The translations under genes were made by a program, and so were the position numbers. The notes beneath the pieces are model-generated. The model worked only from the letters and a program-made list of their open reading frames with translations. It was not told the origin of the DNA and made no database searches. Positions 15,912-59,642 of a stretch of DNA of 64,000 nt are shown piece by piece (position 1 is the first letter of the stretch; each line of letters begins with the position of its first letter). The DNA is taken from NCBI GenBank assembly GCA_019915015.1, contig JAHBBC010000004.1, positions 868,001 to 932,000 on the forward strand, given 5' to 3'. This DNA comes from Auriscalpium vulgare (taxonomy: Eukaryota > Basidiomycota > Agaricomycetes > Russulales > Auriscalpiaceae).

Positions 15912-17088
15912 ACTTGCTGGGAGTGGGCCGATGCTTAGCACGGCAATACGATTCCACATTGAATACTCTCCACTAATGGACCAAACAAATGTGAACATGA
16001 GAGTCTGAGTTGAATCCAGTAAGTATGAGCAATGACCCACAGCACTTGACGACCTGCTACCTCCAGAATTGCGGGCGGAGGTGGGCAAGGAAAATATTGT
16101 TGGATATATCACGTGAGCAAGCTCAAGACCGTGTCGGCAACTTCCGGGTCCTATACAGTTCACACGAACCATATTTTGTATACATGTAGCTGGCTCTTAG
16201 CGTACACTGTTATCAGCCTATTCCCTCTCTCATCGTGCTTCGAGTGCATCGCACCCTCTTCTTGTAGATCATGTGGACCATATTTGTTGGGGAAATTGGG
16301 TCCAACCCAATTTCCCCAACAAATATGATGTCACTCCGGTCACTAAACTGTCGGTTAGTTACCGGAGTGATGTCATAAGTCACACTGTTGCTATGGTAAT
16401 AACAACATGTACCTACACACGAGGAAATGCACTTATGAGGCATATGGATAACAGCCCAGTTGGGGTGTTGTTTAATGTGTGGATGTTGTCTGCAGTGTAA
16501 GAGTGTCAGAGTGAGCAGAGTACAGATGTTGCTGAAGGTGCACTAGCACTATGTGAGTATTGTCAGAAGATGTGAATACATAGTGATGACGGGCGACGTG
16601 GGTGATACGCTAGGGGTGGCATGCACCGTGAGCAGGTTGGGGCTCGGTCGGGGGGGTGCAGTGGCAGGTATCACGCCATGCAGGGCGCGTGTAGCTGCAC
16701 CCGTTGATGCTGGCACTGGTGGACGGCATGCTAAACAATAATTGTTGCCAACACTTGAGCTCAAAAGCGATGACATCATTTCGGCTTTTAAATGCACTTT
16801 AATACCCGGAATGATGACATCGTCTTTTCCTACCGACTGTGCACTGTTCGATGTTCAATCCTGGCAACATAATCACTGTGCGCGTTGTATGGTCTGAGTA
16901 AGTTTCATAGGCAACAATACATGTGTAGTGTACAGTGTATCATCCCGTGAGGCCGGTGAGGGAGCTGAAAGCACGAGTGAACAAAGTGTGGGACTGAATT
17001 TCCAGAAAAGGCGACACAGACTGTCGTTGCATGGGTCAAAAAAATGCTGGATGTAGATGACATAAGCAACGATTCAAAGGAATCGTAA
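15912..17088 (+). repeat. Rep-A interspersed repeat, copy 1 (intact, 1177 bp)
   Basis: Shares both ends and nearly all of its sequence with the split copy at 22371-33858, and its ends with the shorter copy at 59068-59642. All three begin ACTTGCTGGGAGTGGGCCGA and end with a hairpin, ACGATTC-loop-GAATCGT, followed by AA. No long open frame, no TG...CA ends and no flanking duplication, so it looks like a non-autonomous element. The terminal hairpin recalls Helitron-type ends, but the CTRR terminus is missing. Confidence 0.75.
16279..16327. repeat. perfect 23-bp-arm palindrome in Rep-A copy 1
   Basis: Arms starting CATATTTGTTGGGGAAATT pair perfectly over 23 bp around a 3-nt CCA loop. A second, weaker inverted repeat (CACTCCGGT ... 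ACCGGAGTG) follows at about 16334-16370. Confidence 0.95.
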
Positions 17089-22370: not shown

Positions 22371-22654
22371 ACTTGCTGGGAGTGGGCCGATGCTTAGCAC
22401 GGCAATACGATTCCACATTGAATACTCTCCACTAATGGACCAAACAAATGTGAACATGAGAGTCCGAGTTGAATCCAGTAAGTATGAGCAATGACCCACA
22501 GCGCTTGACGACCTGCTACCTCCAGAATTGCGGGCGGAGGTGGGCAAGGAAAATATTGTTGGATATATCACGTGAGCAAGCTCAAGACCGTGTCGGCAAC
22601 TTCCGGGTCCTATACAGTTCACACGAACCATATTTTGTATACATGTAGCTGGCT
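22371..22654 (+). repeat. Rep-A copy 2, left part
   Basis: Matches 15912-16195 of copy 1 almost base for base and stops exactly at the left terminal repeat of the DNA transposon starting at 22655. The remainder of this copy resumes at 32949. Confidence 0.95.
22646..22654. other. 9-bp target-site duplication, left (TAGCTGGCT)
   Basis: TAGCTGGCT occurs once in the uninterrupted Rep-A copy 1 (16187-16195) and twice in copy 2, flanking 22655-32948. Confidence 0.95.
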
Positions 22655-22746
22655 TAGTCTCGGAACCAGCCACATCGGAGTCAAAAAACAAGGCAAACGG
22701 GGACTCCTTAACGTCTGGGGACTTTGAACCGGCGGCACATGGATCG
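22655..22746 (+). repeat. left terminal inverted repeat
   Basis: Positions 1-17 match the right end perfectly. Positions 18-48 are diverged, 49-64 are perfect, and after one mismatch the last 27 (GACTTTGAACCGGCGG...) are perfect again. The conserved inner block may be a transposase-binding site. Confidence 0.95.
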
Positions 22747-22822
22747 AGTGACTATGTCACTGATAGTCACCGCCTAGTCACTGATGCTACAGAGATTAAG
22801 TTATGTGACCAAGCGCGTTTGC

Positions 22823-22826
22823 GCGT
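22823..22826. other. 4-bp target-site duplication of the gypsy element (GCGT)
   Basis: GCGT precedes the left LTR (22823-22826) and follows the right LTR (31740-31743). Confidence 0.85.
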
Positions 22827-24004
22827 TGATGACCTATCTCGGCGCACAGGCGGTCAGATGGCAAAACAAACCACAAAACCAACTCCTGCTGGCTCGAGCG
22901 GTGCTAGTAACAGGTTGGGGGCGCGTCCCAGGACCTACAGATGACTCGGGGAGAGGCGTGAACGCTGGGGGGAAGTCGCTAGGTGACTTGGAGGGCGATA
23001 GGACGATGGACAAGGTGATCTGGGATGGAAGTCGACACTGCTGGTGCGGAACAGGACGTTGCGATGTGTAGCGAGCTTGAGAATACCTTGCTGGAGGGCT
23101 GAGACGATGGGGGAACAAAGGCGAGGATGAGGGGACAAGGGGACAAGGTGATACGAAGGTCGCGATGTAACGCGATAACGCTGGACGAGGTGAAAACAAT
23201 GTGCTCTGCGAAGTTGAAGGCTTGTAAACGTGGGCTCTGCGAAGGTGAAGGCTATAATCTTGGGCGCTGCGAAGTTGAAGGTCGAGGTCAATGTTGAACG
23301 CGATAAAACGATGTTGCAAAGGTTTGAGACGTTGACTCTGGAGGGGAGAAGTTGTCTGATATTCCGTGACCTAGCTACCAACAGATATACACGGGAAACA
23401 TGTCTCTGTGGCTACTGTGAGTCATCTGGTAAGTATGGGGATAGTGAGACATTCTAGAAGGCGTATCCAATCAGAAACAAGCATCGCGACGTATCGGAAC
23501 AGCCGGGCTGTGCTATCTCCATGTGAAACTCCGAGATATGCGGATCGCGACGTATCGGAAACCATCAAACCGGAACATTGCTCTGAGACACTGCATCTAG
23601 ACCGGACCCTGGGACCTGTGGGTGACGTGTCGAGGGGCTGCGCAACGCTAGGACGCTCTGGGAACGAGGTGGGAGGCGAGTGCAACATGTGTAGAGCTGA
23701 GGGCAACAAGGGGATGTATGCGCGAGACATTGCGACGTGCGCACAGAATGCTAATGGCTGGCTCAGAACGTCTTGGTGACTTGGGGGGCGTGTACACATG
23801 ACTTGGGGACTTGTGCAATCGTCCTGCGTGGCCTGGATGGTAGAGAATCGATGGAGACGTCAAGGAGTATAGGCCTGTGTTGCTACAAGTGTGCTAGCGT
23901 CTTGGCTGGAACTGCGAGCGCGATGTGTTGCGATAGTCGATGTTGAGGCAATAGAACGTGCCAAAAATGCGAAAACAGAAGCCACCCGCGCTGGGGGTGT
24001 ATCA
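22827..24004 (-). repeat. 3' LTR of the gypsy element (1178 bp)
   Basis: Bounded by TGAT...ATCA and identical to 30562-31739 except for two substitutions that I can see (near 23167 and 23289). Contains three CTGCGAAG(G/T)TGAAGG direct repeats and two GATCGCGACGTATCGGAA-like repeats, plausible regulatory repeats. It is the 3' LTR because gag and pol read leftward. Confidence 0.97.
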
Positions 24005-24014
24005 CCTCCTCCTT
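24005..24014 (-). promoter_or_regulatory. polypurine tract
   Basis: AAGGAGGAGG on the minus strand directly abuts the 3' LTR, the position expected for plus-strand priming. It lies in a segment (24005-24041) duplicated from inside pol (25706-25742). Confidence 0.85.
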
Positions 24015-24251
24015 ACTGAAGATCTGACCGTCCTCGGTCAGCGCGTGCGTTGAATACGGGTCGGCAAAGGAGTGCTGGGGGCTGCGGTGGGTGGGAACGA
24101 AAGGATACAGAAATGGAAGAGTGAAGCATATAGCGAACTTGAATGTCCCTTCTTGGTCTCTGTAAATGGCATGGGCAAAAGGGAAAAAAAATTAAACAAA
24201 CACAAGGGAAACCATGCGTAGCATGCTGGAAAGAGAAACAACACAAAGGAG

Positions 24252-27200
24252 TCAGGAGCCATCTGGGGGACCATCCATGTCGTCTTCATCGGCTATTGGC
24301 ATGTCTTCTAAGCTGTCATCGTCTCCTAAGGACTGGGAAGCTTCTAGTTCGCGAAGTCGAGTAGTGTCAATATCAATGGCATCTAAGTCCACTTCAATTC
24401 GCTTTCGCGCAAAGAAGGGGATGACTCTGAAGGCGGCAATGGGTCGATCAGAGACGGAACCATCTAGTTCTGCAACAAGGTAGGCGCCTCCGCGGTTTCG
24501 CGATACAACCACAAGGGGGCCTAGATAGCGAGGGCGCATCTTGCGGTTTAGCGACTTCTCGATAGCGGTGTGGCGGATCAATACAAGGTCTCCACGCTTG
24601 AAATCAAAGTCGCGAATGGTCGCTGCGTGGTCACGCTCAAAGCGCTCTGCTGCTGCTAGACGATGTGCAAAAACCTTGGAACGCAGGTGTGAAATGTGCT
24701 CGTGTCGCTTCTGGAGGGCTATGGCGCGTCGTGCAATGAGGTCTGTGGTCGAAAGAATGGACGTGGGCGGCGGCAAGAGGTACGTTGCTTCGGATATGTC
24801 AAGGGGAATGAGCGGATGACAACCTGTGACTGCAAAGTAGGGCGAGCAACCCATGCGGCGTCTTGTAGTAAGGCGCTCGGACCAAAAGACTGTGTGCGCA
24901 GACATAGACCAGCGACTCTGTTCTCCATCGCAGGCCTTGAACAATGCTTGACGAACGTCAAAGTGTGCACGCTCAACGATGCCGTTGGCTCGCGAATTGT
25001 AACCACTGATGCGAATATGGCGAATGTTGTACTTCTTGGACAGATAGTCAAGTGCCTTGACAAATGGGCCTCCGTTGTCTGTGACGATTTCGCTTAATGA
25101 ACCCCAACGACAAAGGATATCTTCAAAGACCCAATCTGCAATGGCCTTGGCTGTCTCACGGCGTAGGAGTCGAAACTCGGGGTACTGGGTGAGTGAACAG
25201 CGTCCTTGAACAATATAGCGAAAGCCGTTAGAGACTGGCATATGCATTGTGTCAACGTAGATCTTCGCGAAGAGCGCAGCGGGTGTCGCAACAACCGGGG
25301 GGATGAGAACTTGACGCTTCTGACGCTGCTGACAGATGAGACAGCTGCGGACATACCACATGGCATCCGCTTCGGAAGCTGGCCACCAAAAACGTTCTTG
25401 AATAAGCGATCTTGTAGCAAAAACTCCGCGATGTCCAACACGATCATGACATTCTGCAAGAACTTGAAGTCGTTGAGCTGGTTGTATCACAAGCTTGTGT
25501 GCGCCATCAAGACTGCGTCGCCAAAGTCTTGTCTTGTCGATAAAGAAGCGCGTCGCATAGCGGACAAAGGTCGCGAACTCAGAATCTGACAAGTCTTCTG
25601 GGCGTTCTGGTTTCCTTAACCAATTGTGGACTGCTTGAATGCGAAGGTCGTGGGTTCTAGCTGAGTCGGAACGTGGCACATCGTCATAACAGAGCTTGGG
25701 CTCCTCCTCCTCCTTACTGAAGTCTTGACCGTCCTCGGTCAGGGCATAGGTCGCGAAGCAGGGAGGGTGGGTGGGCACAGCTAGGATGTGGGAACGAAAC
25801 GCAGAAGGCGAAGGGTAGACAATGTGAAGGAATCCATGCATGTTATCAAGCCAATCGTCATAACTGTCATCTTGTTCTGTCTCTGCTGGGGTATCTTCAC
25901 CTTCTTGTCTATGTCGCGAAAGCCCGTCTGGTCCATGGCGAACCCCTGGAACGTGGCGAAGCTTGAAATGGAAGATGAGGATGCCTAGAATCCATCGATT
26001 GATACTTGCACTAGGGACGAGATCCGGGTTCTTGAGCATTCCTTTGATAGCGCTAGCGTCTACTTCAACAACTAGGTTGCGAACGCCAAGTAGATAGATG
26101 CGGAGTGTGCGTAGTGCACGGAAAAGGCCGTAAATCTCAAGCTTAGGCTGGGAGAAGCGTCGTTCGCGGTCGTTGAGCGTGATAGAACCAAAGCGATTGA
26201 TATAGCGGAGCGTCTTCTTGGGGGTCGCGACGTCTTGCGCTAAGATATAGCCTATTGCAATGTACGAGGAGTCAACAGCTAAGACAACTGGGTCGGGTGA
26301 TTCATAGTTGATGGCACGGAGCGCTGGCGAGGCGAGCAAGGCTACTTTAAGGTCTTCTTGAGCGGCAATATGTTCTGGTCCGAACTCGAATGGGACACCT
26401 TTGCGAGTAAGCTGTGTCAAGACGTGGGCACGTTTCGCGAACGAGTCGATGAAAATGCGGCAGACTCCAATGGTACCAAGGAATGCACGAACGTCAGAGA
26501 CATCTTTGCAGGGGCCCCAGTTGCGGATAACTGAGACAGTGGACTCGTCAGGACGTCGACCTTCTGGGGTGCAACGATGGCCAAGAACGGTGAACTCGCG
26601 ACTGATAATGATAGACTTGGTGCCAGAGAATGTGCCACCACAATACTTCATGCGCTGCAAGATACGGTTGACATTCTGGAAGTGCTCCCAGACAAAACGG
26701 CGGATGTTGCGATTGTTCGCGATGTGCTCGGGCTTGCCATATTCGTCAAGATACTCGGATGCGGGACCTTTGAGTGGGACATCGTCGATGTAGGGGACTG
26801 TAATCGCTGGTATCTCAGGCTGGAGGATGTACGTGACGTCGTCATGGAAGATAGGAACTGAGTTCGTCCATCCCATGGGTAGGGTGACAAGGCGCTTGGC
26901 TCCAAAGGGCGTCTGGAACGTAGTGAGATCTCGCGAGTGTTCGTCAATGAGGCGTTCGTCATAGCCAACGTAGAGATCGAGTATTCCACCGCATGCGCGG
27001 CCTCCGAACTGTTCTGCAAGGTGCTCTGGCGTGGGTGTGACTCCGGAATGTGCGATAGTGACGGCGTTGAGGGGCTCAAGACTGTGAACAATGCGTAGCG
27101 ACTTGCCATCTTTCTTCGCGACGCAGAACCAACGCGAACGATACGATGAATTCGAGTCTTCATATGTGCCTGCATGAATCTTGCGACGAATGAGGTCTGT

Positions 27201-28070
27201 GACTTCTTTGTAAAGACCTGGTGGGATCGGAATATTGCGCTGTACCCAAGGTGTATGCGGAACGACAGGGATTTGGACTGGAGGAAAGAACTCGCGCTTG
27301 AAACTGCCTCGCTCTGAGTCATTCCAAGCGAAAGCGTCGTTGTGAACTGAAATGACGTGGTGCAATAGGTCTCGTTCGGCTGGCTGAAGGAAATTGTAGC
27401 ACTCTTGGCTATCAACAGTGTCTTTGCGTTCTTGCGTGTAGCGTCCGGTGGGTACAAAGGGCGGGGGATGCGTAGGGAGCATAGGGAGCGATGCAAGGGG
27501 ATCTCCCTGTATGTTGCGAACTATGCGGAACTGTTCTGGGACTGAGCCTAGCACAGGCTTGACTTTCTGGGCAACGGGCTTGTACTTGCGCTTCGCAAAC
27601 GTTTCGCGAACTGGGGGTATCTGATTCTCTGGCAAAGGCAGTGGACGAAGGTCTGAGGCAAAGGTAGAAAAGAGTGTGGATTGCGTTGAGGCGGGATTTG
27701 GAGCGAACGTTGAAGTCAAAACTGTAAAAGCTGCTGGAGCGGCGTGGTTGGGAAGCAAAGAACGAGCGTCGGAGGCGGTTAAATAAGCAAACTGGAGCGA
27801 GGATTCGTCTGAAGGGTCAAGAGGGGTATAAGCAAGTGCGCGAACACTCGCGCCGTCGCCTTCCAAGATGAGGGCGACTTCTTCACCATCTTCTAGATAA
27901 TCAAGCAGCGAAAGTTGTCTCCTGTGAGACTCGAAACCGATGATGCCCTCTAGGGAACGTAGGCACTGTGACAACAGCTGTCGAGTTGGGATTGCGAAGC
28001 GTAACAGTCTGGTCTTCGTTCTTGAAGTTGCGCACAACACTCTCTGTGATAACGTCGAAGGGGCGTCCAA
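24252..28070 (-). CDS. pol: gypsy Pol polyprotein: RT, RNase H, integrase
   Basis: About 1270 codons without an initiating ATG; the frame opens at 28070 with TTG and overlaps the end of gag by about 170 nt in the +1 frame, so it is probably made by +1 frameshifting. Domains in order: a linker; reverse transcriptase with VPYIDDVPLKG as the catalytic YIDD and FLGTIGVCRIFI in the thumb; RNase H beginning VLAVDSSYIAIGYILA with later conserved acidic residues; a zinc-binding HHCC region (H-RVGHRG...CLICQQR); and the integrase core with D in YVDTMHM, D in TDNGGPF and E in GIVERAH. A GPY/F-like KMRPRYLGPLVVV follows. The product should yield reverse transcriptase and integrase after proteolysis. No stop interrupts it, which fits the young LTRs. 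Close to the 3' end a Glu-rich stretch shares sequence with the polypurine tract region. Confidence 0.95.
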   Translation of the reverse strand: MDAPSTLSQRVLCATSRTKTRLLRFAIPTRQLLSQCLRSLEGIIGFESHRRQLSLLDYLEDGEEVALILEGDGASVRALAYTPLDPSDESSLQFAYLTASDARSLLPNHAAPAAFTVLTSTFAPNPASTQSTLFSTFASDLRPLPLPENQIPPVRETFAKRKYKPVAQKVKPVLGSVPEQFRIVRNIQGDPLASLPMLPTHPPPFVPTGRYTQERKDTVDSQECYNFLQPAERDLLHHVISVHNDAFAWNDSERGSFKREFFPPVQIPVVPHTPWVQRNIPIPPGLYKEVTDLIRRKIHAGTYEDSNSSYRSRWFCVAKKDGKSLRIVHSLEPLNAVTIAHSGVTPTPEHLAEQFGGRACGGILDLYVGYDERLIDEHSRDLTTFQTPFGAKRLVTLPMGWTNSVPIFHDDVTYILQPEIPAITVPYIDDVPLKGPASEYLDEYGKPEHIANNRNIRRFVWEHFQNVNRILQRMKYCGGTFSGTKSIIISREFTVLGHRCTPEGRRPDESTVSVIRNWGPCKDVSDVRAFLGTIGVCRIFIDSFAKRAHVLTQLTRKGVPFEFGPEHIAAQEDLKVALLASPALRAINYESPDPVVLAVDSSYIAIGYILAQDVATPKKTLRYINRFGSITLNDRERRFSQPKLEIYGLFRALRTLRIYLLGVRNLVVEVDASAIKGMLKNPDLVPSASINRWILGILIFHFKLRHVPGVRHGPDGLSRHRQEGEDTPAETEQDDSYDDWLDNMHGFLHIVYPSPSAFRSHILAVPTHPPCFATYALTEDGQDFSKEEEEPKLCYDDVPRSDSARTHDLRIQAVHNWLRKPERPEDLSDSEFATFVRYATRFFIDKTRLWRRSLDGAHKLVIQPAQRLQVLAECHDRVGHRGVFATRSLIQERFWWPASEADAMWYVRSCLICQQRQKRQVLIPPVVATPAALFAKIYVDTMHMPVSNGFRYIVQGRCSLTQYPEFRLLRRETAKAIADWVFEDILCRWGSLSEIVTDNGGPFVKALDYLSKKYNIRHIRISGYNSRANGIVERAHFDVRQALFKACDGEQSRWSMSAHTVFWSERLTTRRRMGCSPYFAVTGCHPLIPLDISEATYLLPPPTSILSTTDLIARRAIALQKRHEHISHLRSKVFAHRLAAAERFERDHAATIRDFDFKRGDLVLIRHTAIEKSLNRKMRPRYLGPLVVVSRNRGGAYLVAELDGSVSDRPIAAFRVIPFFARKRIEVDLDAIDIDTTRLRELEASQSLGDDDSLEDMPIADEDDMDGPPDGS

Positions 28071-30099
28071 GTAGAATGTCGTACGCGACGTTGCGAATGA
28101 CGTGGATCTGCAAGTAGATGGTAATATTCGCGATCTTGACGGGGACGTTGCGAGCTAATCCAAGCGAGCTGTCATAGTGTGTGTTGGCACTCTGAACACG
28201 AATGCGGATCGAAGGGTCGTATGCAAGGCCAAGATGGTGACAAATCTCTTCTGACATCGAGATAATCTGTGACCCGGGATCCAAAAGGCATTCAACTGTG
28301 TCTTTGTTATCAATGATAGCGTCGATGGAGCGGAGCGCATGTGATTCGCGGGCGACAGTCAAGACTTTAGGCTCTTCTTCAGGGGCTAAGTCCATCAGGT
28401 ACGTCTCATATGGATCATCAATGACTAGGACGCCGGGCGGAGGGTTATTGCGATCTGGCGCGATAACACGAGGGGCAGGGACATAGTTTGCAAACGTCTT
28501 GGCTTCAGCTTCGGCAATTGCCGCGGCGGGCGAGACTATGTCTTCTGGGACCTCTTCGACAGTGGGGAAACTGGAAATGACTTGCTCATTGACTGCACGA
28601 CGAGGTGTGACAACATCGCGATACTTCGCGCGGACCTCTGGCGAGAGTGAAAGGAGTTCCTCAGGTGTGAGCGTGATCGAGTTCGCTTTCATCGAGCGAG
28701 CAAACACTGTGTCTGCTATCTCTGTCTTGTGGACTGGAGCATTTGTCTTGTAAGCGGTGTCTCGCGCATTCAAAGGCCTGGGCGGGTCTGCAGGGACAAA
28801 GCGTGTCTGCTTGACTGGGGCGGAAGTAGCGTCACGAGCTTTGGCAAAGGGGTGCGAAGGTGTGCGAGGTGCTGATGACTGTGCTGGACTAGGAGCAGGA
28901 GCTTGCGCTGGAGCTGGAGCCTGAACTGGTGGGGCATCTTGAGTCGGCTTCACGTTCGCGGTTCGACGAGGGGGCACTTCTACGCCGTCGAAGACCAACT
29001 TGAACGAATCGCGAGCCTGTGGGCCTTTCAGTGCTGCTAGCTCAGCTTCAAGTGCGGCGATGCGATCTGTCGCGGAAAGCGTGAATGTCGAGAGCGGCTC
29101 AACTGCGAGCATCATCTGGGCTTGTGCGCGCTGGCCTGGGTTGCGTCGATGCCACTCCATCATGCGATCACGAAGGGTGTTGCCTGTAATAAAGCGGGGA
29201 ACAAATCCTCCACCAGGTAGTATGACTCTTCCTTCATGGTTTCGCTTGACGTAGCCAGTGCGGATGTCTTCTTCGACTGCAGGACAGTTCGCGATGTGAT
29301 GATCTGGAGCGCCATCATATAGGCAACGATTCTCTGAGCGAATGGTGTCAACTGGAGCAGGTGTGGGCGTGGACAAGGCTGCTGGGACTGCGCTATTGCC
29401 TTGAATTGCTTGGGTGAGCGAACGAACGAGGGTGACAAGGAGTTCTTCCGTCTTGATCGCTGGGGCTGGCGTTAACGATGAGCTGGGTGCTAAAGCGGCG
29501 TCGTTGCGAAAGGAAGAGGCTGCTGTGCCATGTAGAACATAGTTCGTTGCGTCCTTGACGTCAGAAACAAGATAGGGGTCTTCTGGCTCCTGGTCTGGCA
29601 ATTTGATCTGAAGGCGAGCATGGACACGCTGCCAAAGCTCAGCTGGGATGCCTCGAACGAATTCTCGTTGTTGCTGGAGGTCTGAGAGGCGCTTGTGCTT
29701 GATAAGATAGCTGGAGAGCGTCAAGAAGTCGCGATGGAATGTTGCGAACTCTTCCAGTGTCGAGATTCCGTTGGCGCGACGTTCCGCGACGAGGTGCTCA
29801 AGGTCTGCAACTGAATATGCTTTGTCTTCGCTAGCACCTGGGTAGAGCTTCGCGACAGCTTCCTTGAACTCTTTGTATGACTTGGAGGCGTCGGTGAACT
29901 CTGTCATGGCGTCGAAAAGATCGGCTACTTCGATAGGGACATAACTCTGTGCCCAAGTCTTCTTCTCTTCATCCTTGGTGATTGAGAAACGAAGGAATAG
30001 GATTTCAAGGTCTGCAAAGAACCTGCGGATTGAACGAGGCTGTTCTGGGGTAAATATAGGGGCGGTGCGATCACCACGAGCTGGCATAAGCGTAGTCAT
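27901..30099 (-). CDS. gag: gypsy Gag with aspartic protease domain
   Basis: Starts at the ATG at 30099 (MTTLMPARGDRTAPIF), giving 732 codons. The frame is open farther upstream through the primer-binding site into the LTR, but with no ATG. The N-terminal half is a capsid-like helical region (FFADLEILFLRF, YVPIEVADLF, EEFATFHRDFL, ELWQRVHARL). It is followed by a single degenerate knuckle (C-x6-HH-x3-C, from CLYDGAPDHHIANC), a proline/alanine-rich linker, and a retropepsin-type protease with DPGSQ in place of the usual DTG/DSG triad and a later ILLGRPF flap-side motif. Protease thus lies in the gag frame and pol in the +1 frame. Predicted role: particle assembly and polyprotein processing in the cytoplasm. 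Confidence 0.92.
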   Translation of the reverse strand: MTTLMPARGDRTAPIFTPEQPRSIRRFFADLEILFLRFSITKDEEKKTWAQSYVPIEVADLFDAMTEFTDASKSYKEFKEAVAKLYPGASEDKAYSVADLEHLVAERRANGISTLEEFATFHRDFLTLSSYLIKHKRLSDLQQQREFVRGIPAELWQRVHARLQIKLPDQEPEDPYLVSDVKDATNYVLHGTAASSFRNDAALAPSSSLTPAPAIKTEELLVTLVRSLTQAIQGNSAVPAALSTPTPAPVDTIRSENRCLYDGAPDHHIANCPAVEEDIRTGYVKRNHEGRVILPGGGFVPRFITGNTLRDRMMEWHRRNPGQRAQAQMMLAVEPLSTFTLSATDRIAALEAELAALKGPQARDSFKLVFDGVEVPPRRTANVKPTQDAPPVQAPAPAQAPAPSPAQSSAPRTPSHPFAKARDATSAPVKQTRFVPADPPRPLNARDTAYKTNAPVHKTEIADTVFARSMKANSITLTPEELLSLSPEVRAKYRDVVTPRRAVNEQVISSFPTVEEVPEDIVSPAAAIAEAEAKTFANYVPAPRVIAPDRNNPPPGVLVIDDPYETYLMDLAPEEEPKVLTVARESHALRSIDAIIDNKDTVECLLDPGSQIISMSEEICHHLGLAYDPSIRIRVQSANTHYDSSLGLARNVPVKIANITIYLQIHVIRNVAYDILLGRPFDVITESVVRNFKNEDQTVTLRNPNSTAVVTVPTFPRGHHRFRVSQETTFAA

Positions 30100-30540
30100 C
30101 GCGATAAAAGGTTGGGGATTGGTGATAGGGACTTGAACGGTGTGTGTGCGACGGTTCGCGATATAAACGGCGGGCGATGGAAGACGACTGGTGATGGCTG
30201 GAGGTGTGGGAATAGGCTGGGGCGATGGCGAAGGCGGAGTGCGCGATGTGACGGGATGTAACAAGGGGCGAGGCGACGATGGGAAGCTTCCTGGAAACGG
30301 TGGAGAGTCTTCTAATGGATCTAGGAGGTTGATATCACTGAGAAGGTCGGAAGGAAGGTTGTTGTGTGTCGCAAATGGACTAGGGACTGAGGAAAAGAGT
30401 TCTCCTGGACTGGGGGGCCAAACGACAAACGATTCGCGAAGTTCTGCGGCTAGGGAGGAGACTCGAGTAGGATAGCGATGTCGATGTGTAGGGGGTGTGG
30501 AAGATGAACGAGAGTGATCTGAAGCAATCCTGGTAGTGCC

Positions 30541-30557
30541 CCTCGCGGTGGGCTCCA
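30541..30557 (-). promoter_or_regulatory. primer-binding site
   Basis: On the minus strand TGGAGCCCACCGCGAGG begins four nucleotides after the 5' LTR. It starts TGG, complementary to a tRNA 3' CCA end. I cannot name the tRNA without its sequence. Confidence 0.75.
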
Positions 30558-30561
30558 CAAA

Positions 30562-31739
30562 TGATGACCTATCTCGGCGCACAGGCGGTCAGATGGCAAA
30601 ACAAACCACAAAACCAACTCCTGCTGGCTCGAGCGGTGCTAGTAACAGGTTGGGGGCGCGTCCCAGGACCTACAGATGACTCGGGGAGAGGCGTGAACGC
30701 TGGGGGGAAGTCGCTAGGTGACTTGGAGGGCGATAGGACGATGGACAAGGTGATCTGGGATGGAAGTCGACACTGCTGGTGCGGAACAGGACGTTGCGAT
30801 GTGTAGCGAGCTTGAGAATACCTTGCTGGAGGGCTGAGACGATGGGGGAACAAAGGCGAGGATGAGGGGACAAGGGGACAAGGTGATACGAAGGTCGCGA
30901 CGTAACGCGATAACGCTGGACGAGGTGAAAACAATGTGCTCTGCGAAGTTGAAGGCTTGTAAACGTGGGCTCTGCGAAGGTGAAGGCTATAATCTTGGGC
31001 GCTGCGAAGTTGAAGGTCGAGGTCGATGTTGAACGCGATAAAACGATGTTGCAAAGGTTTGAGACGTTGACTCTGGAGGGGAGAAGTTGTCTGATATTCC
31101 GTGACCTAGCTACCAACAGATATACACGGGAAACATGTCTCTGTGGCTACTGTGAGTCATCTGGTAAGTATGGGGATAGTGAGACATTCTAGAAGGCGTA
31201 TCCAATCAGAAACAAGCATCGCGACGTATCGGAACAGCCGGGCTGTGCTATCTCCATGTGAAACTCCGAGATATGCGGATCGCGACGTATCGGAAACCAT
31301 CAAACCGGAACATTGCTCTGAGACACTGCATCTAGACCGGACCCTGGGACCTGTGGGTGACGTGTCGAGGGGCTGCGCAACGCTAGGACGCTCTGGGAAC
31401 GAGGTGGGAGGCGAGTGCAACATGTGTAGAGCTGAGGGCAACAAGGGGATGTATGCGCGAGACATTGCGACGTGCGCACAGAATGCTAATGGCTGGCTCA
31501 GAACGTCTTGGTGACTTGGGGGGCGTGTACACATGACTTGGGGACTTGTGCAATCGTCCTGCGTGGCCTGGATGGTAGAGAATCGATGGAGACGTCAAGG
31601 AGTATAGGCCTGTGTTGCTACAAGTGTGCTAGCGTCTTGGCTGGAACTGCGAGCGCGATGTGTTGCGATAGTCGATGTTGAGGCAATAGAACGTGCCAAA
31701 AATGCGAAAACAGAAGCCACCCGCGCTGGGGGTGTATCA
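30562..31739 (-). repeat. 5' LTR of the gypsy element (1178 bp)
   Basis: Same length as the copy at 22827-24004. At both sites where the LTRs differ this copy has CpG and the other TpG or CpA. Confidence 0.97.
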
Positions 31740-31797
31740 GCGTCGTCACGTCAATATGCACGCATGCGTCTGCTGTTTGTTTACTGTAATCAACACC

Positions 31798-32676
31798 ATG
31801 GATGAAGCTCCCGACATATTCACTGAGGAGGATGAAGATTTATTTGAGCATCTGTATGGAGAACATTACGACAGCGACCAATTTTCCGACGACGAGCAGT
31901 CCGAGACTCCCCTCCCTCCGCCTCCACCTCCCGCACCTCCACCCCCGCCAATCCATCCTGTTGACCCTATACAGTTGAAGCGCACGAAGCAGCTGAGAGA
32001 TAACTTCAAGGGGAATATCACCGAGGTCGCCCGAGATATCCTCTGTTATATGGACCGCAAGGGCATGAACCTGCCCTTCCTCCTCGACGTAGTGAGCTGG
32101 GGTGACGCGGGCTGCGTAGAAGACAGCAAAACCCGATATGAAAGAACGGGCCTGATGGTCAGTCAAGAACTCCCAAGCATCATCGCACGCTGGTGCCGTC
32201 CTCCGCGCACCTCTGGAAGCCACGACGCACGGGCGGGTGCCGCTTCTGTCCCCATGCAAAATTTTGCAGTCGAGCATCTGGGCAATGTCATCAATCAGGA
32301 GCTAGCGTTCCATGTCACTCCCTGTACAACACCTGTTCGCAGCCCCATTTTCGCAAACCGTGCGGCTTGGTCGTCCTCCAGCGCCTTGAGTGGCGAGACG
32401 ATCACCGACGACGACCGTCATCTTGTTGGGGTATACGAAGTTTGGCATGACGAAGGGCATCGTCTTTCCGGCCCCTGTGCCCGCTATCACGGGTATATTA
32501 TGCTCTGTATATTTAGTACGCTGTGTTTCTTCCTTGCGCCGCACGCTCTGCGCAGGTTTTGCGTCGAGTGCAACAGGCCTCCGGCACCGGCCCGTGCTAC
32601 CGCTGGCCAGTCAGTTGCTCACGGGCAAACCGCGACCTTTTGGAATGGTTTCTTTTGGCGGGTACGTGTTTTTTGA
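31798..32676 (+). pseudogene. DUF6589-like protein, truncated N-terminal part
   Basis: Begins at an ATG at 31798 with an acidic start and a proline run (PPPPPPAPPPPP). Then comes a block that resembles the N-terminal region of DUF6589 proteins of mushrooms: VARDILCYMDRKGMNLPFLL, DVVSWGDAGC, RYERTGLMVSQELPSIIARW, and QNFAVEHLGNVINQEL. Similarity ends at about 32304, where the sequence becomes the antisense of a helicase fragment, so codons after that are accidental. Full DUF6589 proteins are several hundred residues longer. The gypsy insertion lies 55 bp upstream of the ATG, in what was the promoter or leader. The family call is from memory. It may be a captured fragment or the remains of the element's own gene. 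Confidence 0.6.
32303..32544 (-). pseudogene. RecQ-like helicase fragment (Walker A region)
   Basis: On the minus strand: PVIAGTGAGKTMPFVMP, a Walker A (GTGAGKT) in RecQ-like context, then KMTVVV. After a short frame shift it continues as VSPLKALEDDQAARFAKMGL, motif Ia of mushroom RecQ-like helicases, and ends abruptly against the DUF6589-like segment. Motif II (DEAH) and everything downstream is missing. It is a captured internal fragment without a start codon. Confidence 0.7.
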
Positions 32677-32856
32677 CCTACTCTACCCATCCCCAGCTTC
32701 TCAGCCCTTAGCCGTAGATGCCCCGACCTCTGTGAAAACCGCAGGCGGTACAGAGGTCGGGCTTAGTCTGCTCACGCGGCGGGTGCTTGCCGCTTATCTC
32801 CCCGTTATCTCTTGATTTTAATGGGCCCTCGCTCAGGCTCGCTGTCACGCTTGGGC

Positions 32857-32948
32857 CGATCCATGTGCCGCCGGTTCAAAGTCGCCAGACGTTAAGGAGT
32901 GTCTTTCCGTGTCTTTTTTCAGCTCCGCCACGGCTGGTTCCGAGACTA
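32857..32948 (-). repeat. right terminal inverted repeat
   Basis: Inverted partner of 22655-22746, 92 bp, ending CGAGACTA at 32948 directly before the duplicated TAGCTGGCT. Confidence 0.95.
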
Positions 32949-33858
32949 TAGCTGGCTCTTAGCGTACACTGTTATCAGCCTATTCCCTCTCTCATCGTGC
33001 TTCGAGTGCATCGCACCCTCTTCTTGTAGATCATGTGGACCATATTTGTTGGGGAAATTGGGTCCAACCCAATTTCCCCAACAAATATGACGTCACTCCG
33101 GTCACTAAACTGTCGGTTAGTTACCGGAGTGATGTCATAAGTCACACTGTTGCTATGGTAATAACAACATGTACCTACACACAAGGAAATGCACTTATGA
33201 GGCATATGGATAACAGCCCAGTTGGGGTGTTGTTTAATGTGTGGATGTTGTCTGCAGTGTAAGAGTGTCAGAGTGAGCAGAGTACAGATGTTGCTGAAGG
33301 TGCGCTAGCACTATGTGAGTATTGTCAGAAGATGTGAATACATAGTGATGACGGGCGACGTGGGTGACACGCTAGGGGTGGCATGCACCGTGAGCAGGTT
33401 GGGGCTCGGTCGGGGGGGTGCAGTGGCAGGTATCACGCCATGCAGGGTGCGTGTAGCTGCACCCGTCGATGCTGGCACTGGTGGACGGCACTGCTAGATG
33501 CCAAACAATAATTGTTGCCAACACTTGAGCTCAAAAGCGATGACGTCATTTCGGCTTTTAAATGCACTTTAATACCCGGAATGATGTCATCGTCTCTTCC
33601 TACCGACTGTGCACTGTTCGATGTTCAATCCTGGCAACATAATCACTGTGCGCGTTGTATGGTCTGAGTAAGTTTCATAGGCAACAATACATGTGTAGTG
33701 TACAGTGTATCATCCCGTGAGGCCGGTGAGGGAGCTGAAAGCACGAGTGAACAAAGCGTGGGACTGAATTTCCAAAAAAGGCGACACAGACTGTCGTTGC
33801 ATGGGTCAAAAAAATGCTGGATGTAGATGACATAAGCAACGATTCAAAGGAATCGTAA
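32949..33858 (+). repeat. Rep-A copy 2, right part
   Basis: Begins with the second TAGCTGGCT (32949-32957) and then follows copy 1 from CTTAGCG to the terminal hairpin and AA. It contains the same 49-bp palindrome at 33041-33089, and keeps a TGACGTCA where copy 1 has TGATGTCA. Confidence 0.95.
33041..33089. repeat. perfect 23-bp-arm palindrome in Rep-A copy 2
   Basis: Same arms and CCA loop as the palindrome in copy 1. Confidence 0.95.
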
Positions 33859-39607: not shown

Positions 39608-40732
39608 TGGCTTCACCGCATGGATCTTTATCGACGGCCAGACGCCCGCAATCGCCTGCCTTCCTGCGTTGCCATGGTGATGACGCATGAGACGAACTGG
39701 ACCAGGCGGTGCACACTGGGCTGCTCGTCGACGGACGCAGACAACGCAAACGGCGGAGCCGGGGAGCGCTGTCTCAGACTCTCAAAAGGCGAGATTGCGA
39801 CTGGAGCGCTGCGAGCGGGTATCACTAGCTGTGGGGGCATGATGGATGAGAGGCGCGCGCGCACGGCGAATGACAACACACCTGGCCAAAAAGCGATGGC
39901 GATGCGGCGAGGCACGCGGCCACGACTAGCGATGTCCACGTGTCGGCGTCATTTGAGGATAGACGATGATAGACGTGGGTTTCTTGGGACATCTTGCTGG
40001 CTGCGTCGTCCATGGGCGCGAAGTCCTGGGCGGGGGATGGGGAGGAGGAGCACGGCGGGGCAGACGACACGAACAAGGCTCCCACACCCACACAGCGCTC
40101 TCTGCTTGCTTCGCCCGGACAGGCCGGGTTGAGCATGTTCAAGGCTGCGGGGAGGAGTGCCAGTGCGGGCTGCGGTCGCAAGTCTGGATGGACATTGAGT
40201 GCTGACTCTGAGTTTGTGAGCACTCGAGCCCTAGACGCTTGATGGCGGCCAAACAGTGTCAAAGCGGGCCACGCGCGCTCGGCCCGTTGCGCCGCGCAGC
40301 CTGTGCTCCCGCTCTCCGCTCAACAGCCCAGCTCGTGCCGGCCAGACCCCAGCTCAGCACTCTCATGCGGGCCAGGTCTGGTCCTGGACACATTGCATCA
40401 GTCCTGTGCATTTCATTTTGGTTTCATTGGGGTACTACACATCTTGCTCGACCTACTACACCACCGCCCCCTCCCCGCGAACGTGCTCACATCCCTCGAA
40501 GGCGCCGTGCCCCCGCGTTCACGCACGAGACGCCAATGATGACCCACTGCATTGTGGGATACCTGCGGCGGAACGCGAGCCCGGAACGCCGCGGCGCGAA
40601 AGGACGCCGTCCGGTGGTCGGTAATGGCCCCCAAGATGGCATTTGCAATGGATGGGGTAGTCCGCGTTGGCACCGCTTTCAGCCATTAAACCCGCAGACC
40701 ATACTTCGTCAACGTGGGCTGCTCGTATTGGC
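39608..40732 (+). repeat. tandem duplication, unit 1 (mosaic identity)
   Basis: Matches 41372-42551. Positions 39788-40732 are almost identical to 41608-42551 (a few changes before 39960, none seen after). Positions 39608-39787 match only loosely, with many substitutions and gaps. The period is about 1.82 kb. Confidence 0.85.
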
Positions 40733-42410
40733 GCGCGGACGGCTGGCATGGCGGCGCGAGGCGACGCCGTGATGGCAGAAGTTGAGTGGTGGGACTCGAT
40801 CGCGTCAGTTGCTGGAAGTTGCAAGGAGCCGCGTCATCAGGTAGCACTTCGGGCATGAAAAGGAGCATCTCACCTGCGAGCTGGCTCCAAGAACGACATG
40901 GACAGAGCGCGGTTACATCGCTTGATAGGCAAGGCTGCAGTCCTGCGACTGCCTAGGCATGGCTATTCTTCCTTTCCCACCACGCCTTTCAACCGAAAGA
41001 CAAACCGGACGAACCACTCCGCCGTGCGCTGTTTGTATTTAAACGCGGACAGCACAACCAGCGGCGCAGGGGATGCCGCGCGGGCCTCACGGTCTGCAGC
41101 GACACGTGTGCGTGCGAGCTGAAATGAACGGGCCAGTTCATGGGCATATTCCTGCAGCCGCAAGATACAATGGGAGATAACACACCTGACACAACACAAG
41201 ACAGCGTCGACGGCCACGCCGGAGCATGGGCACGGTGCACGCGGCTACACCACACTTCGGGCGGGCGCCGTGAGGGCTACGGCAGCGAACAAAAGTAGCG
41301 CAGGCTGTCAGAATGGAACGCGATGAGCGGGAAAAATGACAGCACACCTTGTCGTCTGCGCAGCCTTCCTGGATGGCTTCACCACGTCGATCGCGGGTAG
41401 TAGCACCGACGGCCAGCCGATTGCGACATAGCCTGCCATCGCTTGCTTTCCTGTGTCACCCCTGTGATGACGCACAGGACGAGCCGGACCAAGTGCTCCA
41501 CATTGAGCTGCTCTTCGGCGGATGCAGACGACGCAAACGGCGGCGCCGGTGGACGCTGTCTTCCTGTGGTGGACCCGCGTACACGCCGTGATCGCCGCGA
41601 CTTCAATGGCGAGATTGCGACTGGAGCGCTGCGAGCGGGTATCACTAGCTGTGAGGGCATGATGGATGAGAGGCGCGCGCGCACGGCGAATGACAACACA
41701 CCTGGCCAAAAAGCGATGGCGATGCGGCGAGGCACGCGGCCACGACCAGCGATGTCCGCGTGTCGGCGTCATTTGAGATAGACGATGATAGACGTGGGTT
41801 TCTTGGGACATCTTGCTGGCTGCGTCGTCCATGGGCGCGAAGTCCTGGGCGGGGGATGGGGAGGAGGAGCACGGCGGGGCAGACGACACGAACAAGGCTC
41901 CCACACCCACACAGCGCTCTCTGCTTGCTTCGCCCGGACAGGCCGGGTTGAGCATGTTCAAGGCTGCGGGGAGGAGTGCCAGTGCGGGCTGCGGTCGCAA
42001 GTCTGGATGGACATTGAGTGCTGACTCTGAGTTTGTGAGCACTCGAGCCCTAGACGCTTGATGGCGGCCAAACAGTGTCAAAGCGGGCCACGCGCGCTCG
42101 GCCCGTTGCGCCGCGCAGCCTGTGCTCCCGCTCTCCGCTCAACAGCCCAGCTCGTGCCGGCCAGACCCCAGCTCAGCACTCTCATGCGGGCCAGGTCTGG
42201 TCCTGGACACATTGCATCAGTCCTGTGCATTTCATTTTGGTTTCATTGGGGTACTACACATCTTGCTCGACCTACTACACCACCGCCCCCTCCCCGCGAA
42301 CGTGCTCACATCCCTCGAAGGCGCCGTGCCCCCGCGTTCACGCACGAGACGCCAATGATGACCCACTGCATTGTGGGATACCTGCGGCGGAACGCGAGCC
42401 CGGAACGCCG
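40648..42410 (+). repeat. segment duplicated at 51456-53218
   Basis: This stretch spans the junction of the two tandem units and is copied, about 99.5% identical, exactly 10,808 bp downstream. Its open frames (for example a minus-strand frame at 41308-42081) are unsupported by any family signature. Confidence 0.92.
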
Positions 42411-42551
42411 CGGCGCGAAAGGACGCCGTCCGGTGGTCGGTAATGGCCCCCAAGATGGCATTTGCAATGGATGGGGTAGTCCGCGTTGGCACCGCTTTCA
42501 GCCATTAAACCCGCAGACCATACTTCGTCAACGTGGGCTGCTCGTATTGGC
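41608..42551 (+). repeat. tandem duplication, unit 2
   Basis: Second copy of 39788-40732. The match ends at 42551, after GCTCGTATTGGC. Confidence 0.9.
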
Positions 42552-51455: not shown

Positions 51456-53218
51456 ATGGATGGGGTAGTCCGCGTTGGCACCGCTTTCAGCCATTAAACC
51501 CGCAGACCATACTTCGTCAACGTGGGCTGCTCGTATTGGCGCGCGAACGGCTGGCATGGCGGCGCGAGGCGACGCCGTGATGGCAGTAGTTGAGCGGTGG
51601 GACTCGATCGCGTCAGTTGCTGGAAGTTGCAAGGAGCCGCGTCATCAGGGAGCACTGCGGGCATGAAAAGGAGCATCTCACCTGCGAGCTGGCTCCAAGA
51701 ACGACATGGACAGAGCGCGGTTACATCGCTTGATAGGCAAGGCTGCAGTCCTGCGACTGCCTTGGCATGGCTATTCTTCCTTTCCCACCACGCCTTTCAA
51801 CCGAAAGACAAACCGGACGAACCACTCCGCCGTGCGCTGTTTGTATTTAAACGCGGACAGCACAACCAGCGGCGCAGGGGATGCCGCGCGGGCCTCACGG
51901 TCTGCAGCGACACGTGTGCGTGCGAGCTGAAACGAACGGGCCAGTTCATGGGCATATTCCTGCAGCCGCAAGATACAATGGGAGATAACACACCTGACAC
52001 AACACAAGACAGCGTCGACGGCCACGCCGGAGCATGGGCACGGTGCACGCGGCTACACCACACTTCGGGCGGGCGCCGTGAGGGCTACGGCAGCGAACAA
52101 AAGTAGCGCAGGCTGTCAGAATGGAACGCGATGAGCGGGAAAAATGACAGCACACCTTGTCGTCTGCGCAGCCTTCCTGGATGGCTTCACCACGTCGATC
52201 GCGGGTAGTAGCACCGACGGCCAGCCGATTGCGACATAGCCTGCCATCGCTTGCTTTCCTGTGTCACCCCTGTGATGACGCACAGGACGAGCCGGACCAA
52301 GTGCTCCACATTGAGCTGCTCTTCGGCGGATGCAGACGACGCAAACGGCGGCGCCGGTGGACGCTGTCTTCCTGTGGTGGACCCGCGTACACGCCGTGAT
52401 CGCCGCGACTTCAATGGCGAGATTGCGACTGGAGCGCTGCGAGCGGGTATCACTAGCTGTGAGGGCATGATGGATGAGAGGCGCGCGCGCACGGCGAATG
52501 ACAACACACCTGGCCAAAAAGCGATGGCGATGCGGCGAGGCACGCGGCCACGACCAGCGATGTCCGCGTGTCGGCGTCATTTGAGATAGACGATGATAGA
52601 CGTGGGTTTCTTGGGACATCTTGCTGGCTGCGTCGTCCATGGGCGCGAAGTCCTGGGCGGGGGATGGGGAGGAGGAGCACGGCGGGGCAGACGACACGAA
52701 CAAGGCTCCCACACCCACACAGCGCTCTCTGCTTGCTTCGCCCGGACAGGCCGGGTTGAGCATGTTCAAGGCTGCGGGGAGGAGTGCCAGTGCGGGCTGC
52801 GGTCGCAAGTCTGGATGGACATTGAGTGCTGACTCTGAGTTTGTGAGCACTCGAGCCCTAGACGCTTGATGGCGGCCAAACAGTGTCAAAGCGGGCCACG
52901 CGCGCTCGGCCCGTTGCGCCGCGCAGCCTGTGCTCCCGCTCTCCGCTCAACAGCCCAGCTCGTGCCGGCCAGACCCCAGCTCAGCACTCTCATGCGGGCC
53001 AGGTCTGGTCCTGGACACATTGCATCAGTCCTGTGCATTTCATTTTGGTTTCATTGGGGTACTACACATCTTGCTCGACCTACTACACCACCGCCCCCTC
53101 CCCGCGAACGTGCTCACATCCCTCGAAGGCGCCGTGCCCCCGCGTTCACGCACGAGACGCCAATGATGACCCACTGCATTGTGGGATACCTGCGGCGGAA
53201 CGCGAGCCCGGAACGCCG
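51456..53218 (+). repeat. recent copy of 40648-42410
   Basis: Runs at a constant offset of 10,808 bp, with fewer than about ten substitutions seen in 1763 bp and no indels. It starts ATGGATGGGGTAGTCCG and ends GAACGCCG. The five bases just before it are CGCCG and its own last five bases are also CGCCG, so the right CGCCG may belong to a 5-bp flanking duplication. No terminal inverted repeats. Confidence 0.92.
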
Positions 53219-59067: not shown

Positions 59068-59642
59068 ACTTGCTGGGAGTGGGCCGACGGGTAGCGCGGC
59101 AGTACGATTCCGCTCTGAGGGGGTTTCTGGTTACATAATCAAATATATACATAAATAATAGTCTTGAGACAGTATGTACTAGACACCAAAACGCGACTGG
59201 GAGTGGCCCTGGTACCAACTTTAAGTCATGGTGGGCAATACTGTACACTGGAGGGCATTAAAATTTACATAAGTTGGGTGTGCAGCTGCACCTGAGGTGG
59301 TTGTTGTGAAATCAAGAGTGATGACATCATTTCGGGCTCTAATTGTAATTTAAAACCCCCGAGTGACATCATCGTATTTCTGCCTGTGTTGTCTGGTGCG
59401 TCTCAGTTGTCGCAACATCACTGTTCTGCAACTTCTGTATATGTTGCATGGCCTAGTAATCAGTGTATTTAGGCAATCATTTGTGTATATTGTGTGGAGC
59501 AAATTTAATGAGGAGGGGTAAAGTCGTGAGTTGACATAGCGTGGGAGCGAATTTCCAAAAAAGGCGACACAGATGATCGTTGCATGGGGTCGAAAAAACG
59601 CTGTATATGGATGACATAAGCAACGATTCGTAGGAATCGTAA
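59068..59642 (+). repeat. Rep-A copy 3, short form (575 bp)
   Basis: Has the same start (ACTTGCTGGGAGTGGGCCGA) and the same end (GCAACGATTC-GTAG-GAATCGT-AA) as copies 1 and 2 but lacks about 600 bp of interior including the 49-bp palindrome. The loop of the terminal hairpin differs (GTAG rather than AAAG) while both stem arms are kept. Confidence 0.85.

Follow-up and report, generated by a model that had tools for sequence, protein, structure and literature searches.

What interrupts one copy of a repeat, Rep-A, in the genome of the basidiomycete Auriscalpium vulgare, and how did it get there? The locus lies in a stretch of 64,000 nucleotides (the window; assembly GCA_019915015.1, contig JAHBBC010000004.1, C4 in our numbering, positions 868,001 to 932,000), which was compared with the whole genome of 51.6 Mb in 96 contigs by searches that score best candidates only. 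The insert is very probably a non-autonomous, internally deleted DNA transposon of the AcademH group, representing a single insertion that was spread by Rep-A.

Borders and anatomy of the insert

An earlier note on this DNA had described a DNA transposon with 92-bp terminal inverted repeats (TIRs) and a 9-bp target site duplication (TSD), its exact borders being given by an empty site in the same window. These structures and borders were borne out, as TAGCTGGCT stands at both edges of the insert and is found unbroken at 16187-16195 in Rep-A copy 1, the empty site, while the two TIRs are gap-free inverted repeats of 92 nt with 80% complementarity (Table 1). An assembly artefact, which the note had named as a possible refutation, is unlikely because the same insert occurs at eight other places with differing left flanks, and eight near-identical and seven diverged Rep-A copies are empty.

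The TIRs also display the pattern claimed for them, i.e., an identical outer 17 bp, a differing middle and a near-identical inner section. In three independent elements of the family, the outer 17-18 bp match between both ends (with one mismatch in the C19 element), as does most of the inner part. Left-type and right-type versions of the middle recur from element to element, and thus, judged from sequence, the diverged middle is a property of the family and not decay of a single copy. It may let the transposase tell the two ends apart.

Searching the genome with the left end gave 24 matches, among them eight uninterrupted copies of 1,370-1,378 bp on C27, C13 (three), C10, C2, C52 and C12, with pairwise identities, gaps included, of 99.1-100%. 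The window copy aligns to the C27 copy as two pieces of 172 and 1,209 bp with a 4-bp overlap. The sequence between them, overlooked in the earlier note, is a Ty3/gypsy-type long terminal repeat (LTR) retrotransposon with aspartyl protease, reverse transcriptase-RNase H and integrase zinc-binding domains, flanked on both sides by the 4-bp TSD GCGT, and among the nine filled Rep-A copies it is found only in that of the window. The transposon proper is therefore 1,377 bp long, and a length of 10.3 kb was rejected, as 8.9 kb of it belong to this later insertion.

The 1,377-bp element retains remnants of two genes (Table 1). An open frame of ~300 residues (31789-32676) joins the 170 residues of the transposase N-terminus to a new tail. 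Between the 1,377-bp and C6 copies, the N-terminus shows nonsynonymous and synonymous divergences (dN and dS) of 0.06 and 0.39 over ~86 codons from a downstream ATG, the first half being left out; these values are uninformative on the period since the deletion. By analogy with KP, a trans-acting repressor of the P element, there is a slender chance that the ~300-residue product could act in trans as a repressor of the autonomous element, in which case Rep-A would have carried a repressor to nine sites.

A probable autonomous partner and the superfamily

The earlier note had proposed searching the genome with the TIR ends for full copies with 9-bp TSDs and for a partner carrying a transposase; such copies were found, as was a partner with a candidate transposase gene. 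The partner is a separate insertion at C6:1702700-1719068 with the exact 9-bp TSD TAGAAGATC. It contains a nested LTR element of 9,801 bp (identical LTRs of 1,616 bp, 4-bp duplication), without which the transposon measures 6,564 bp. The product of its plus-strand gene is 93-94% identical to the A. vulgare protein P0001 over residues 1-900, in two blocks, and matches Pfam family DUF6589 (E 1.3e-98). The minus strand encodes DEAD and Helicase_C pieces, and for the one piece compared with the PDB the closest structures are RecQ-type helicases. The nested retrotransposon is located between the DUF6589 gene and the searched helicase pieces, 3' of both. Deletion gave rise to the shorter copies of 1,377 and 1,720 bp, in which both ends of the C6 element are kept. 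Among the matches listed in a protein search with P0001, a near-full-length close relative occurs at C6 only, the other close ones being N-terminal remnants in the nine copies; the nearest database relative listed for the partner's transposase is from A. vulgare (97% identity over the searched region).

A further insertion, at C19:175001-176720, has the exact 9-bp TSD GGATATGTA, so that such a duplication accompanies each of the family's three full insertions into different targets; the targets other than that in Rep-A are unrelated to the Rep-A site. Allowing up to two mismatches, a TIR pattern search gave 43 matches against seven for the reversed control. Nine of the 43 read TAGACTCGTAACCAGCC and represent a sister family; the three of these loci that were fetched all have both ends and exact 9-bp TSDs (CCGGCACAG, GGTCCGTCC and CCATACGAC, read by eye from the flanks), one of the three elements being only 102 bp long.

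The 9-bp TSD and long TIRs had led the earlier note towards a Mutator-like mechanism. Mutator-like elements (MULEs), in which a MULE transposase moves long-TIR elements, do generate TSDs of 9-11 bp, so that these two features would suit a MULE. This origin is nevertheless very unlikely and was rejected, since the partner with the same ends codes for DUF6589 and a RecQ-like helicase. The MULE transposase domain PF10551 is absent from the six pieces of the partner's two genes that were scanned with Pfam, and the four genome matches listed for it (C43, C45, C9 and C13:724567) are weak, with E 3.9e-5 at best, and none coincides with any copy found. hAT transposons are not known to encode a helicase, and Kolobok elements insert at TTAA. 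The usual hAT TSD is 8 bp (PMC12730594), and the 9 bp found here differ from those of hAT (Hermes). KolobokH, also fungal and equipped with a RecQ helicase (PMC9587614), is similar in these respects, whereas the six example 9-bp TSDs here have no common motif.

AcademH fits better. Kojima reportedly set it out in 2020 as a lineage of Academ DNA transposons. AcademH is reported to make TSDs of 9 or 10 bp and AcademX of 3 or 4, a difference tied to the encoded helicase and nuclease (PMC10045372), and among Basidiomycota, Ascomycota and Mucoromycota AcademH is described as having a low copy number (PMC10799480). Putative non-autonomous Academ elements are given for the mushroom Marasmius oreades (PMC8290104), while a search of PMC12210899 for Academ gave no more than a background mention and references. 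The present family resembles AcademH in its 9-bp TSD (three of three family insertions and three of three sister loci), its encoded helicase (DEAD, Helicase_C and RecQ-like on C6), its basidiomycete host and its few copies (marks as in PMC10045372 and PMC10799480), and the window copy differs in being non-autonomous and seated in Rep-A. Since AcademH is reported to generate TSDs of 9-10 bp and to encode a helicase, the superfamily, judged by these published marks, appears to be already described, and the element itself is of low novelty. A new superfamily, similar to AcademH in TSD length and helicase only, is improbable: DUF6589 was absent from the literature searched and no Academ transposase was compared, which leaves room for it, but the combination of TSD length and helicase is that published for AcademH (PMC10045372), as is low-copy occurrence in Basidiomycota (PMC10799480).

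On the AcademH reading, an autonomous relative such as that on C6 would supply a DDE transposase, the DUF6589 protein, and the RecQ-like helicase. These would recognise the ~93-bp TIRs, and the ends would be joined to staggered target cuts 9 bp apart, creating the 9-bp TSD. One insertion would have occurred at TAGCTGGCT in Rep-A, which then would have spread with its insert, and the Ty3/gypsy-type element would have entered the window copy later with a 4-bp TSD.

Several observations weigh against this account. No excision footprint was seen and none was specially sought, so cut-and-paste transposition is only assumed. At C73/C5, which share flanks and represent one duplicated locus (L013:330-431, L015:363-464), a 102-bp TIR-TIR element has no matching TSD. 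Only one end is present at C20:702797-702853, where two loose 13-base matches (up to three mismatches) lie within 220 bp and no duplication pairs them with the TIR end; they look like the ends of another small element. For the putative catalytic protein, Foldseek by itself found nothing below E 0.001, its top hit being Hermes at 0.023, and unrelated proteins come up at rank 7 and beyond; the comparison tool itself cautions that a middling structural Z can reflect a common arrangement, and the DDE triad of D317, D489 and E733 is a putative assignment of ours from conservation and secondary structure, in a family where several other acidic residues are also invariant. Finally, right-arm variant 16329 was dropped as a mark of filled Rep-A copies, being present in all nine of them and also in seven of eight empty ones.

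Two further observations concern one-ended matches. For that at C26:477503, the partner end was not found in the 2 kb read. Beside the one-ended TIR on C20, the reverse strand of C20:701000-702950 (L071) harbours a small element whose ends resemble TAGGTTCGGA...TCCGAACCTA; GATTCAATG stands on either side of it, the left one base off, and it is perhaps of another family with 9-bp TSDs.

DUF6589 as a candidate DDE transposase

DUF6589, of unknown function in Pfam, is thus linked to a putative DDE transposase fold, 9-bp TSDs and a helicase partner; a search of a limited literature collection for the term DUF6589 did not find the link to a DDE fold in print. If the link is upheld, many fungal proteins now annotated as hypothetical could be relabelled AcademH-type transposases; at least 255 proteins match DUF6589 at E<=0.001. 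The A. vulgare genome has 43 matching stretches, several being pieces of a single gene. Helicase pieces (37-40% identity) lie near DUF6589 on C14 and C49 too, and these two copies are 99.9% identical over 9 kb. They were tried for borders and set aside, as both end at a different, high-copy family with 78-bp TIRs; the copies on C20 and C8 were too diverged for this purpose. The high-copy family (ATAGGGGAGCTCAGAG...) is seen at L041:5677-9061 (C14), on C49 and at many places, with some copies back to back.

Rep-A as probable carrier of nine copies

Rep-A has constant ends, and its flanks differ at every locus read. It shows no TIR, and no target duplication where both flanks were read. A hairpin of 7 bp (z -5.56) forms at its 3' end, two bases short of the border, and the 3' signature GATTCNNNGGAATCGTAA has 243 genome matches against none for the reversed control. 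Rep-A is read as a non-autonomous rolling-circle-like element. CTRR is the 3' end motif of Helitrons. The lack of TIR and TSD, the hairpin 2 nt from the end and the variable targets are like Helitron/Helentron-type elements, whereas Rep-A ends in TAA, not CTRR; Helitron_like_N matches number at least 50 among those listed for the genome.

Nine filled copies carry the insert at the same TAGCTGGCT site and in the same orientation. All nine retain both Rep-A ends and all left flanks differ (only the left flank was read, except for the window copy). Empty copies comprise eight at 99-100% identity and seven at 84-86%, and all seven diverged ones read unbroken through TAGCTGGCT, with an unrelated 25-base difference elsewhere. 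Since the same-site insert sits in nine Rep-A copies with different left flanks and both Rep-A ends kept, the simplest account would be one insertion into Rep-A followed by spreading of Rep-A with its passenger. Nine independent insertions at a preferred Rep-A site would explain the identical target in 9/9 but are exceedingly unlikely given the uniform orientation, the 99.1-100% identity of the eight uninterrupted inserts, the two left-arm variants common to 9/9 filled but in only 1/8 near-identical empty copies, and the unrelated targets of the other full insertions. Spreading as passengers of another mobile repeat is the most likely history of the nine near-identical copies, a rolling-circle-like repeat being thereby seen with a DNA transposon as cargo in nine of its copies.

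Rolling-circle elements can form tandem arrays, and at C4:633338-654987, 14 Rep-A-like 3' ends follow in series on one strand, mostly ~1.4 kb apart, as a tandem array. A shorter relative of Rep-A, with a shared start and a hairpin-like end, lies at 59068-59642 of the window.

Table 1 Features of the insert and its carrier in window coordinates
Feature	Position	Strand	Basis or remark
Rep-A copy 1, empty, 1,177 bp	15912..17088	+	site TAGCTGGCT at 16187-16195
Rep-A copy 2, filled (transposon and retrotransposon inside)	22371..33858	+	start ACTTGCTGGGAGTGGGCC, end GATTCAAAGGAATCGTAA; flanks differ from copy 1
Left 9-bp TSD TAGCTGGCT	22646..22654	.	direct read
Left TIR	22655..22746	+	window alignment
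Non-autonomous, probably AcademH-type element, part 1 (172 bp)	22655..22826	+	C27 alignment; last 4 bp = GCGT, the retrotransposon's TSD
Ty3/gypsy-type LTR retrotransposon, later insertion, 8,913 bp	22827..31739	-	window and C27 alignments
Retrotransposon LTRs, 1,178 bp each, 2 differences	22827-24004 and 30562-31739	-	
Non-autonomous, probably AcademH-type element, part 2 (1,209 bp)	31740..32948	+	C27 alignment; first 4 bp = second GCGT
DUF6589 (candidate transposase) gene remnant, residues 1-170	31789..32304	+	83% identical to A. vulgare protein P0001, frame open
RecQ-like helicase gene remnant, two short pieces	32307..32499	-	75 and 85% identical to C6 copy
Right TIR	32857..32948	-	window alignment
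Right 9-bp TSD TAGCTGGCT	32949..32957	.	direct read

Elsewhere in the window, 39777-42551 and 51456-53218 are long repeats with at least 99% identity.
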